Below the pieces are notes generated by a model that saw only the letters and a list, made by a program, of their open reading frames with translations, did no database searches and had not been told where the DNA came from. 64,000 nt of DNA from Streptomyces gelaticus (GTDB taxonomy: Bacteria; Actinomycetota; Actinomycetes; Streptomycetales; Streptomycetaceae). The translations under genes were made by a program, and so were the position numbers. Positions 52,090-55,800 of this stretch are shown here, in pieces. How positions within the stretch are numbered: the stretch's first letter is position 1; each line of letters opens with the position of its first letter. The stretch lies in NCBI RefSeq assembly GCF_014649535.1, contig NZ_BMTF01000001.1, forward strand, positions 310,407-374,406. The letters are read 5' to 3'.

Positions 52090-52330
52090 AAGGAGTTGTC
52101 CACGTTCGTACGCTCCCGCACGCGCCGAGCGGCAGGAGTCACGGCGGGGCTCGCCCTCGCCGGCCTCCTGGCGGCGACCGTCGTCACCGCACCGGCGTCG
52201 GCCGCCCCACCGGCACCGGTAGCCGTGGCCACGAGGTGACCGCCGAGGCCGTCGACCGTACGGACGTCATCCGTGTCCCCGCCGTCCGCGCCCTGGCCAC
52301 CGACACCCTGACCTGGAGCGTCAGGGCGGG
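52090..52330 (+). pseudogene. remnant of a secreted protein gene
   Basis: One frame encodes a signal-peptide-like segment (RRAAGVTAGLALAGLLAATVV then TAPASAA) ending at a stop near 52239. A second frame continues with protein-like sequence (VTAEAVDRTDVIRVP, ALATDTLTWSVRAG) up to the end of the encapsulin gene. A frameshift plus truncation of a secreted protein explains both. The family is not recognised. Confidence 0.4.
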
Positions 52331-52346: not shown

Positions 52347-53144
52347 TCAGGCGATGATCGGGACCACGGCCTCGGGCGTCAGCATCCGGAAGGTGAACGC
52401 CTGGTGGAAGTAGAGCCGGATGCTGGTCGCGTCGTGGTCCTGATAGCCGATGGAGAGGTCCTGGCCCAGGCGCAGCTCGAAGTCGCCGCCGCGGGTGGAC
52501 AGCAGCACACCGCCCCTGACGGCGGGCGCCCACAGGATCTGGTCGTCGAGCAGCCGGGCCAGATGGGTGGCCACCGGGTACCCGTGGTCGGAGGTCTCGG
52601 TGGCCTCGGTGAAGGCATCGGCTCCGAGCAACAGCCGGTAGGGGCCGTCGACACCGGCCAGCCGCAGCTGGGTCAGTGCCTGGCTGACCGTGGTCGGGTA
52701 GTCGCGGGCGTCCGCGGGCAGCGTCAGCGGCGAGTGCGAGGAGCCGTCCCGGAGCCCGGTGATCCCGGCCGAGGCATAACCGTCGATGATCGACATGTCC
52801 TCCGCGAACGCACAGGTACGGGCGGCGTCCTTGACGGGCTGCCAGTCGCTGTCGTCCGAGCCGCGCTCGACATCGTCCACGGCCGACCGGGTCACGGTGA
52901 ACGGCGCCCGCCACTCGATGACCGGCACCGATGTGCGGGCGCGGGCGAAGACGTCCGGAGTGGGCGGATCGATGTCGCGCAGATGGCCGTCGCCGATCGC
53001 GGCCAGTTCGGGGCCCTCCGGGCCGGTGACGTCGACGACGCGGCGGCCCGCCACATGGCGGCTGAAGGTGCGCCGGGCCTCTTCTTCGATCTGGTCCCAG
53101 GCGGCTTCCGTGACAGGGGCGAGTTCGCGGTGGAGATTGTTCAT
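52347..53144 (-). CDS. family 1 encapsulin shell protein
   Basis: 265 aa, the normal encapsulin length. The N-terminus MNNLHRELAPVTEAAWDQIEEEARRTF and the C-terminus LYFHQAFTFRMLTPEAVVPI match the HK97-fold Linocin_M18 family. The protein self-assembles into a ~20-30 nm compartment that captures cargo bearing a short C-terminal peptide. Its start codon overlaps the DyP stop by one base (TGATG), so shell and cargo are co-translated. Confidence 0.95.
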   Translation of the reverse strand: MNNLHRELAPVTEAAWDQIEEEARRTFSRHVAGRRVVDVTGPEGPELAAIGDGHLRDIDPPTPDVFARARTSVPVIEWRAPFTVTRSAVDDVERGSDDSDWQPVKDAARTCAFAEDMSIIDGYASAGITGLRDGSSHSPLTLPADARDYPTTVSQALTQLRLAGVDGPYRLLLGADAFTEATETSDHGYPVATHLARLLDDQILWAPAVRGGVLLSTRGGDFELRLGQDLSIGYQDHDATSIRLYFHQAFTFRMLTPEAVVPIIA

Positions 53145-54205
53145 CACTGGGTGCTTTCTTGCAGGCTGCCGATGTGCAGCGAACCGTCGGCCGGACCGGC
53201 CGGGGCCGTCGCCGGCGCCGACACGGGCTCCGGCAGGGCGTCGGTCCCGGCCGACGAGGGGGCGGGTGGCGGGGCGTGGAGGAAGTCGGCGCTGGGTGCG
53301 TAGAACGTCGTGCCGGTGACCGCGGTGGAGAAGTCGAGAATGCGGTCGTGCGTGGCGGGCGGACTGCCGAGGAACATGTTGCGGAGCATCTGCTCGGTCA
53401 CCCGCGGATCGGCGGCGTAACCGATGAAGTAGGTGCCGAACTCGCCCTCTTCGAAGCTGCCGAACGGCATGTTGGCGCGCAGGATGTCGCGCGCCGTGCC
53501 GTCCGGGTCGGTGATCGTGGTGAGGGCGATGTGCGAGTCGGCCGGTTTGATGTCGTCGGCGAACTCGATGTCGTCCAGCTTCGTGCGGCCGATGACCCGC
53601 TCCTGCTCCTCGGTGCTCAGTGCGGTCCAGGACGCGAGGTCGTGCAGGTACTTCTGCACGATGACGTAGCTGCCGCCCGCGAACGGGGGATCCTCGGCGC
53701 CGACCAGGGCCGCCGACCGCGCGTCCGCTCCCACCGGGTTCTCCGTGCCGTCGACGAAGCCGAGCAGATCCCGGTGGTCGAAGTAGCGGAACCCCTGCGT
53801 CTCGTCGACGAACTTCACCGCCCCGCCGAGCCGGTCGAGCAGTCGGGTCGCCCATGCGAAACACACATCCATCCGCTCGGCCCGGATGTGGAACAGCAGA
53901 TCCCCCGGGGTGGCGGGTGCGTGGTGCCGGGCGCCGTGCAATTCCGGGAAGGGGTGCAGCTGTGCCGGTCGCGGCCCGGCGAACAGCCGGTCCCAGGCCC
54001 CGGAACCGAAGCCGGTCACACAGACGGGGCCGGACTCGGGGAACCGGAAGCCGATGGAGCGGGCGAAAGCCGCGAGATCCGGCAGCACCTCGCGCACGGC
54101 GGGTTCGCCACCGGGCTCGATCGTGGCGACCAGGATCAGTGCGGCGCTGGTCAGCGGTGCGACGACCGGCTGGACCGCGACCGGCTCCGGGGCGGTGTCG
54201 GGCAT
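53144..54205 (-). CDS. DyP-type peroxidase, encapsulin cargo
   Basis: 353 aa. The DyP signature GFVDGTENP contains the catalytic Asp. The heme-ligand His lies in KPADSHIALTT, and the distal Arg in DPRVTEQMLRNMF. A Pro/Ala-rich linker (from ~310) ends in DGSLHIGSLQESTQ, the SL-x-IGSL-type encapsulin targeting peptide. It uses H2O2 to oxidise dyes and phenolics, or may counter oxidative stress inside the capsule. ATG 54205 follows AGGGAGC. It heads a two-gene operon with the encapsulin. Confidence 0.95.
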   Translation of the reverse strand: MPDTAPEPVAVQPVVAPLTSAALILVATIEPGGEPAVREVLPDLAAFARSIGFRFPESGPVCVTGFGSGAWDRLFAGPRPAQLHPFPELHGARHHAPATPGDLLFHIRAERMDVCFAWATRLLDRLGGAVKFVDETQGFRYFDHRDLLGFVDGTENPVGADARSAALVGAEDPPFAGGSYVIVQKYLHDLASWTALSTEEQERVIGRTKLDDIEFADDIKPADSHIALTTITDPDGTARDILRANMPFGSFEEGEFGTYFIGYAADPRVTEQMLRNMFLGSPPATHDRILDFSTAVTGTTFYAPSADFLHAPPPAPSSAGTDALPEPVSAPATAPAGPADGSLHIGSLQESTQ

Positions 54206-54357: not shown

Positions 54358-55800
54358 TCAGCCCGCGGCGACCTCGGACCGGTCGCCGCCCCAGAGGGTG
54401 TGGAAGGAGCCCTCGCGGTCGGTGCGGCGGTAGGTGTGCGCGCCGAAGAAGTCGCGTTGGCCCTGGGTGAGCGCCGCGGGCAGCCGGTCGGCGCGCAGGC
54501 CGTCGTAGTACGTCAGCGCGGCGGCGAATCCCGGTGTGGGCACCCCCTGGCGCACCGCTTCGGCGACCACCGCGCGCCAGTCGTCCTGGGCCGCGCCGAT
54601 CTCCTCGGCGAACCTCTGGTCGGACAGCAGGCTCGGCAGCTCGGGGCGGGCGTCGTACGCGGCCCGGATACGGTCCAGGAACGCGGCCCGGATGATGCAG
54701 CCGGCCCGCCAGATCGCCGCCACCGCACCGAGGCCGATCTTCCAGTCGTATGCCTCGCTGCCCGCCCGGATCTGATGGAAGCCCTGCGTGTACGAGACGA
54801 TCTTGGACGCGTACAGGGCCTGCTCCACCCGGTCGGCGAAGGCCGCGGCCGCCTCCTCGCCGAGCGGGGACGCCGACGGGCCGGGCAGGCCCCGGGCCGC
54901 CTCGCGCAGATCCGCGTGCCCGGACAGCGAACGGGCGAAGACGGCCTCCGCGATGCCTGATACGGGCACCCCCAGATCGAGGGCGATCTGCACCGTCCAG
55001 CGGCCCGTACCCTTCTGCTCGGCGCGGTCCTGCACGATGTCGACGAAGGGCTTCCCGGTGGCCCCGTCCGTGTGGGCGAGGACCTCCGCCGTGATCTCGA
55101 TCAGGTACGAGTCGAGGCGGCCGGTGTTCCAGCTGCGGAAGGTCTCGGCGATCTTCGCGGGGGAATAGCCCGCCACGGCGCGCAGGAGGTCGTACGCCTC
55201 GGCGATGAGCTGCATGTCCGCGTACTCGATGCCGTTGTGGACCATCTTGACGAAGTGGCCGGCCCCGTCGGGGCCGATATGGGTGGTGCACGGGGTGCCG
55301 TCCTTCGCCTTGGCGGCGATCTTCTCCAGCAGCGGCCCCAGCGACTCGTACGACTCGGCCGAACCGCCCGGCATGATGCTCGGCCCGTTCAGCGCGCCCT
55401 CCTCGCCGCCCGAGATGCCGACGCCGACGAAGTGGATCCCCCGCTCGCGCAGTTCCCTCTCCCGTCGGCGGGTGTCCTCGAAGTGCGCGTTGCCGCCGTC
55501 GATGACGACGTCGCCCGCTTCGAGGAGCGGGGCGAACTCCTGGATCACGGCATCGGTGGGTCCGCCCGCCTTCACCATGATGACGAGCCTGCGCGGACGT
55601 TCCAGCGCCGCGACGAATTCCTCGGGCGTGTGCGCGGCGACGAAGGTGCCCTCGTCGCCGAACTCCTCCACCAGGGCGTCGGTCCTGGCGGTCGTCCGGT
55701 TGTGCACCGCTACCGTGAATCCGTTGCGGGCGAAGTTGCGCGCGAGGTTGCGGCCCATGACCGCGAGCCCTGTGACGCCGATCTGTGCAGTGCCGCTCAT
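54358..55800 (-). CDS. gnd: 6-phosphogluconate dehydrogenase, decarboxylating (NADP+)
   Basis: 480 aa, the long-form length. The NADP motif GVTGLAVMGRNLARNFARNG opens the protein and reads GxTGxAxMG in place of GxAVMG. The signature IDGGNAHFEDTRRR and catalytic-site segments GVGISGGEEGALNGPSIMPGG, FVKMVHNGIEYADMQ and the C-terminal TYRRTDREGSFHTLW are complete. It makes ribulose 5-phosphate, CO2 and NADPH in the cytoplasm. Many streptomycetes carry two gnd genes. ATG 55800. It lies upstream of DyP on the same strand, separated by 152 bp. Confidence 0.95.
   Translation of the reverse strand: MSGTAQIGVTGLAVMGRNLARNFARNGFTVAVHNRTTARTDALVEEFGDEGTFVAAHTPEEFVAALERPRRLVIMVKAGGPTDAVIQEFAPLLEAGDVVIDGGNAHFEDTRRRERELRERGIHFVGVGISGGEEGALNGPSIMPGGSAESYESLGPLLEKIAAKAKDGTPCTTHIGPDGAGHFVKMVHNGIEYADMQLIAEAYDLLRAVAGYSPAKIAETFRSWNTGRLDSYLIEITAEVLAHTDGATGKPFVDIVQDRAEQKGTGRWTVQIALDLGVPVSGIAEAVFARSLSGHADLREAARGLPGPSASPLGEEAAAAFADRVEQALYASKIVSYTQGFHQIRAGSEAYDWKIGLGAVAAIWRAGCIIRAAFLDRIRAAYDARPELPSLLSDQRFAEEIGAAQDDWRAVVAEAVRQGVPTPGFAAALTYYDGLRADRLPAALTQGQRDFFGAHTYRRTDREGSFHTLWGGDRSEVAAG

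Follow-up and report, generated by a model that had tools for sequence, protein, structure and literature searches.

A DyP-encapsulin operon of Streptomyces gelaticus in which the end of the cargo tag may also encode the Shine-Dalgarno sequence of the shell gene

The DyP peroxidase and encapsulin genes of Streptomyces gelaticus described here share a single base, which raises two questions: does the peroxidase enter the shell encoded immediately after it, and what sets the output of a shell gene that starts on the last base of its cargo's stop codon? The locus lies within a window of 64,000 nucleotides (contig NZ_BMTF01000001.1, positions 310,407 to 374,406), the whole stretch of DNA that was analyzed; all coordinates refer to it. 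Judging from sequence comparison and analogy with relatives, it is very probably a family 1 DyP-encapsulin operon in which tag-loaded DyP would be enclosed in a T=1 shell and the Shine-Dalgarno (SD) sequence of the shell gene would lie inside the tag codons. Its features are:

54358..55800, reverse strand: 6-phosphogluconate dehydrogenase, by profile match; no tag
53144..54205, reverse strand: B-type DyP peroxidase, encapsulin cargo, 353 aa (ATG 54205-54203, TGA 53146-53144)
53186..53272, reverse strand: Pro/Ala-rich flexible linker from DyP core to tag, about residues 312-340, fast evolving
53162..53185, reverse strand: cargo targeting peptide GSLHIGSL, residues 341-348, from conservation in 22 loci
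53154..53159, reverse strand: AGAAAG, putative SD of the shell gene from comparison, 9 nt from its ATG
53142..53146, reverse strand: TGATG, DyP stop and shell start with one common base
52347..53144, reverse strand: family 1 encapsulin shell protein, 265 aa (ATG 53144-53142, TGA 52349-52347)

The initial annotation gave no strand; both the DyP and the shell gene are on the reverse strand, and with DyP at 54205..53144 followed by the shell at 53144..52347 its order of cargo then shell holds, as does the sharing of one base (A53144) between the DyP TGA and the encapsulin ATG. It was also right, in coordinates and sequence, about a Pro/Ala linker followed by DGSLHIGSLQESTQ at the DyP C-terminus, which reads ...APATAPAGPADGSLHIGSLQESTQ. 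The dehydrogenase gene, upstream of DyP on the same strand and 152 bp before its start, is a conserved neighbor rather than cargo, present in the fetched stretch of 17 of 20 relatives from the clade to which the window locus belongs (the window clade). A SigR-like promoter upstream of DyP, sought with a simple pattern, was found in none of 30 relatives. Just past the shell gene and convergent to it, a 43-aa ORF (52108-52239, forward strand) resembles a secretion signal, VRSRTRRAAGVTAGLALAGLLAATVVTAPASAAPPAPVAVATR, followed by a stop, and is probably the stump of a secreted-protein gene.

Both proteins are what they were first taken to be. The DyP scores 270.9 bits against TIGR01413 and lies above the cut-offs for Pfam Dyp_perox_N and Dyp_perox_C; its catalytic residues D152, H225, R243 and N245 are all present, and these features together with the tag-type C-terminus uphold its identity as DyP cargo. 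Roles for His225 and Arg242 of the Klebsiella DyP are described in PMC10960027. The genome has one B-type DyP, plus three weak DyP-like matches, and a single family 1 shell gene. That gene's product scores 327.7 bits against NCBIfam NF041155 over residues 4-262 (cut-off 100) and 295.3 bits against Pfam Linocin_M18 (PF04454). Of the tag-pocket residues, R34, D38, T217 and D229 are present, with L230 at the fifth position checked; the first four are kept in all 38 clade shells, and R34 also in 121 of 121 shells outside the clade. Scores and pocket residues alike confirm a family 1 encapsulin. The closest solved structures are encapsulin-linked DyPs for the one protein and encapsulin shells for the other, and by analogy the window shell would be expected to self-assemble into a T=1 icosahedral shell.

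Several shell genes elsewhere are unusual. One genome from another family of the class (G367) has two family 1 shell genes (L168 and C1:1268059-1268844), 60% and 58% identical to the window shell. Shells of Streptomyces whose tag is followed by Lys-Gly (L067-L088 and similar) seem to begin 5 to 20 codons ahead of the standard MNNLHRE start, which would give them N-terminal extensions. Three shell genes are decaying: in L108 (G286) the match covers only 29 residues and the adjacent DyP has an intact tag; in L107 (G255) a 115-residue fragment remains and the tag of the adjacent DyP is degraded; and in L105 (G072) a 143-residue fragment lies in a fetched stretch lacking a DyP.

Does the peroxidase enter the shell? 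The GSLxIGSL core is present at residues 341-348. Of 295 genomes drawn from the genus, 75 gave a shell hit at E <= 0.001, fragments included; the tag pattern occurs in 65 of 68 shell-adjacent DyPs and in 1 of 54 with no shell nearby (Fisher p 1e-29, the same pattern being applied to both groups and the loci not being phylogenetically independent). This split agrees with PMC10960027, which states that GSLxIGSLK is confined to encapsulin-linked DyPs. Three shell-adjacent loci miss the pattern: L020 has a frame break, L026 has Pro for Ser, and in L102 a tag-like stretch can be seen in the DNA. Among DyPs without a shell, relics of the tag can be seen in DGSPDIGDLRR (L112, the sole lone match) and EGSSRIGGLEGG (L113). 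Across 22 window-clade loci, identity is 1.0 at the G, S, L, I, G and L of the tag, 0.95 at its second S and 0.14 at its variable residue; mean identity to the window residue is 0.55 for linker residues 312-336 vs. 0.80 for the core. Loading of DyP through an SL-x-IGSL-type tail, as first proposed, is thus well supported by homology and by the 65/68 vs. 1/54 split: the GSLHIGSL peptide would bind the luminal pocket of the shell and draw DyP hexamers into it, as shown for relatives and by extension in the window, the likely role being enclosed peroxidase chemistry under oxidative stress.

Two further loci of the genus draw attention. In L020 (G126) the tag is intact but the DyP frame before it appears to be broken, perhaps through an error of assembly, and in L103 (G233) a tagged DyP (GSLEIGSLRGAG) is opposite in strand to the shell gene, so that there is no common junction. 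No other cargo was found in the window genome: a degenerate, non-exhaustive DNA pattern for the tag has a single match in the 7.75-Mb assembly, the window DyP, although a second cargo with a diverged tag may exist.

The tag had been called explicit, and this is true of its GSLxIGSL core but not of the lysine at position 8, whose mutation (K346A) abolished loading in Klebsiella according to PMC10960027. Tags of the window clade read GSL[RH]IG[SG]L[QRH]ES, with Gln (33), Arg (4) or His (1) at position 8 in 38 rows; the window has Gln, where the GSLxIGSLK consensus has Lys (or Arg). That lysine is a consensus position and stands outside the definition of family 1 DyP cargo; its partner in Klebsiella is D38, mutation of which had a lesser effect on loading (PMC10960027). 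Taken with the K346A result, the Gln counts against tag-driven loading, and one possibility is that the DyP stays free in the cytoplasm and its tag is a decaying relic, the essential lysine being gone; the DtpB of S. lividans, as described in PMC11168072, works without any encapsulin. This is nevertheless very improbable: GSL.IGSL is (nearly) invariant across the clade while linker and variable position drift, the clade loci retain a full-length shell gene, and tags do decay once the shell is gone (L112, L113, L107). In addition, all 38 rows have Arg or His at tag position 3, a possible replacement charge for the missing Lys. Tag-driven loading, the preferred reading, would be expected to survive in the window clade via the three hydrophobic tag residues. 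Compensating shell mutations were also considered, and no link was found: the shell has 15 clade-specific residues, none among the five pocket residues checked. Searches of the open-licence literature returned no report of a DyP-encapsulin clade without the tag lysine, and the window clade could serve as a natural test of the need for that lysine in loading.

The second question concerns the junction. From 183 shell loci, 173 were usable and gave 134 non-redundant junctions; the other 10 lacked a tagged ORF by pattern, although a tag-like stretch can be seen by eye in at least six of these (L026, L102, L198, L260, L262, L291), which were missed through the pattern or a frame break. Overlaps of -4 (69 junctions), -1 (13), -8 (9) and -20 (5) occur among the 134, as do gaps of +1 to +94 (38); the 38 window-clade rows have -1 in 27 and -4 in 11. 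The initial proposal of a cargo-to-shell ratio fixed by the TGATG overlap is unsupported, because the one-base overlap is not conserved: the range is -20 to +94. A T=1 shell has 60 subunits. Since it holds one to three DyP hexamers (PMC10960027), shell must exceed cargo several-fold, and reinitiation on a one-base overlap alone should not be able to yield such an excess. Termination-reinitiation as the setter of the ratio, with the tail codons incidental, does find some encouragement in the 124 of 134 junctions with an overlap or a gap of <=7 nt, and translational coupling of cargo and shell in tight operons has been suggested (PMC7925596 and PMC8229669). It is unlikely all the same, both from the shell excess and from the position of a second signal.

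This signal is a conserved SD match immediately after the tag, spelled AAAGGAG where the residues are Lys-Gly and AGAAAG where they are Gln-Glu-Ser, as in the window (codons CAA GAA AGC, Q349-E350-S351). Of the 134 junctions, 123 have it in the tag tail, 8 after the stop, 2 mixed and 1 not at all. The codons that write it are rare ones: in the genus draw, Lys after the tag is AAA in 32/38 (background 11%), Gly is GGA in 32/32 (8%), Gln is CAA in 20/20 (3%) and Glu is GAA in 22/22 (20%). Against a null of synonymous resampling with each locus's own codon usage, restricted by design to gaps of <=7 nt, 82 of the 124 non-redundant junctions have a better anti-SD match (p<=0.05), although the loci are related and the p-values overstate independence. 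The share is 40/47 in the genus draw and 42/77 in the phylum, plasmid and genome-contig draws; 0 of 2 Klebsiella-type junctions (KKE) pass. Ordinary tight gene pairs pass the same test in 2 of 40 cases, a value lowered by some surely wrong starts, as the pairs come from 400 kb of one relative with genes called by codon composition only. The 6-nt AGAAAG of the window, found in 37 of 38 clade rows, was reached by 0/300 and 0/500 resamplings.

Spacing is more constant than overlap: the SD spacing to the shell start is 5 in 22 of 22 window-clade loci, with overlaps of either -1 or -4; of the 32 Lys-Gly loci, 31 have a spacing of 6 to 10. The steady SD spacing despite a variable overlap, and the lack of such SDs in ordinary tight pairs, argue against reinitiation as the governing step. 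In the longer-tailed loci L245, L274, L282, L283, L258 and L279 the SD lies near the start and tag position 8 is free. Beyond a gap of 7 nt, Lys occupies position 8 in 2/10 and Arg in 8/10, vs. Lys in 92/124 at short gaps (p 0.001; in the ten long-gap junctions the SD is mostly after the stop, and several are close relatives). The constant spacing, the long-tailed loci and the position-8 shift argue for an SD tied to the shell start and not to the peptide.

Could the rare codons instead reflect common ancestry, or selection for the Lys-Gly or Gln-Glu peptide, with no ribosome site involved? Loci within one clade are not independent, and other tag codons of the window clade (TCG, CTG, ATC, GGC) are frozen as well. 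Within that clade, codon-invariant columns nevertheless number 6 of 8 in the tag vs. 73 of 323 amino-acid-invariant columns elsewhere (L020, with its broken DyP frame, left out); the SD persists across genera despite changes in the residues (KGA, KRS, QES, QRS, RRS, KGT, KEG); in the long-tailed loci of Rhodococcus type (L245, L274, L282) the SD tracks the start codon, not the tag; and the position-8 counts shift with gap length. Such an origin is on balance improbable, if less so than reinitiation. The preferred reading, to which the conserved match, near-constant spacing and rare codons lead, is that the last codons of the cargo tag are probably dual coding, for peptide and SD. DyP and shell would be made from one message, the shell start abutting the DyP stop, with AGAAAG in the last tag codons recruiting ribosomes to that start.

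For the window clade in particular this claim is weakened, since AGAAAG is weaker in energy than synonymous alternatives of common codons: the observed duplex energy is -4.8 vs. a synonymous-null mean near -6.5 kcal/mol, opposite in sign to the SD expectation. With free bulges, just 15 of 65 loci reached p<=0.05 by duplex energy, and contiguous matches with a spacing limit were chosen in its place after this result had been seen. AGAAAG also matches the anti-SD less well than does the AAAGGAG of other clades, and the window clade may have traded shell output down. The 16S 3' end, GGATCACCTCCTTTCT, is present in 8 of 8 relatives, while a search of the window genome's draft assembly did not find it; AGAAAG would pair with its extreme 3' end. 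A regulatory RNA hairpin at the junction was tried and rejected: the tag codons can form a 5-bp stem, but folding is no better than in shuffles (z 0.14).

A broader proposal, held with moderate confidence, is that across DyP encapsulins the codons after GSLxIGSL form the SD of the shell gene, so that one part of the published consensus, the terminal Lys with the next residue, would be a nucleotide signal, with basic charge as the sole need of the peptide. In the window clade the two roles would have separated: Gln-Glu-Ser took the place of Lys-Gly, the register of the SD moved but its distance from the start stayed at 9 nt, and in place of the lost lysine the clade has Arg or His at tag position 3. 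If tag and ribosome site do overlap in their bases, the tag consensus drawn from DyP operons is biased by translation signals, and recoding or moving the tag would unknowingly alter shell output.

How does the operon compare with known systems? The SD of a close downstream gene may lie inside the upstream coding region, as is generally known; the new part may be an SD written into a functional targeting peptide, no report of one inside an encapsulin cargo tag having been found in the open-licence encapsulin literature on SD, coupling and overlap. In other respects this is a complete, ordinary DyP-encapsulin operon, one more case of a well-known group. PMC8346489 reports 67 Streptomyces DyP operons with 6-phosphogluconate dehydrogenase as accessory gene, so that the type is already known; the neighbor is the same in the window, and no difference was seen. 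The Klebsiella pneumoniae system (PDB 8u50, 8u51, 8u4z; PMC10960027) likewise has cargo then shell and a GSLxIGSL tag. Its shell is 58% identical to that of the window, with R34, D38, T217 and D229 in both; its tag is GSLNIGSLK with an 8-base overlap (L193), vs. GSLHIGSLQ with one base in the window. The best solved relative of the window DyP is PDB 7bok (465 bits, linker and tag included), presumably from Mycobacterium smegmatis, with the tag GSLGIGSLK vs. GSLHIGSLQES. S. lividans DtpB and S. coelicolor SCO7193 (PDB 6yr4, 4gu7; 436 to 437 bits) are B-type DyPs like that of the window; unlike S. gelaticus, S. lividans is without an encapsulin gene as described in PMC11168072, and the lone DyPs of the genus, with that single pattern match among 54, differ from the window DyP in lacking the tag.
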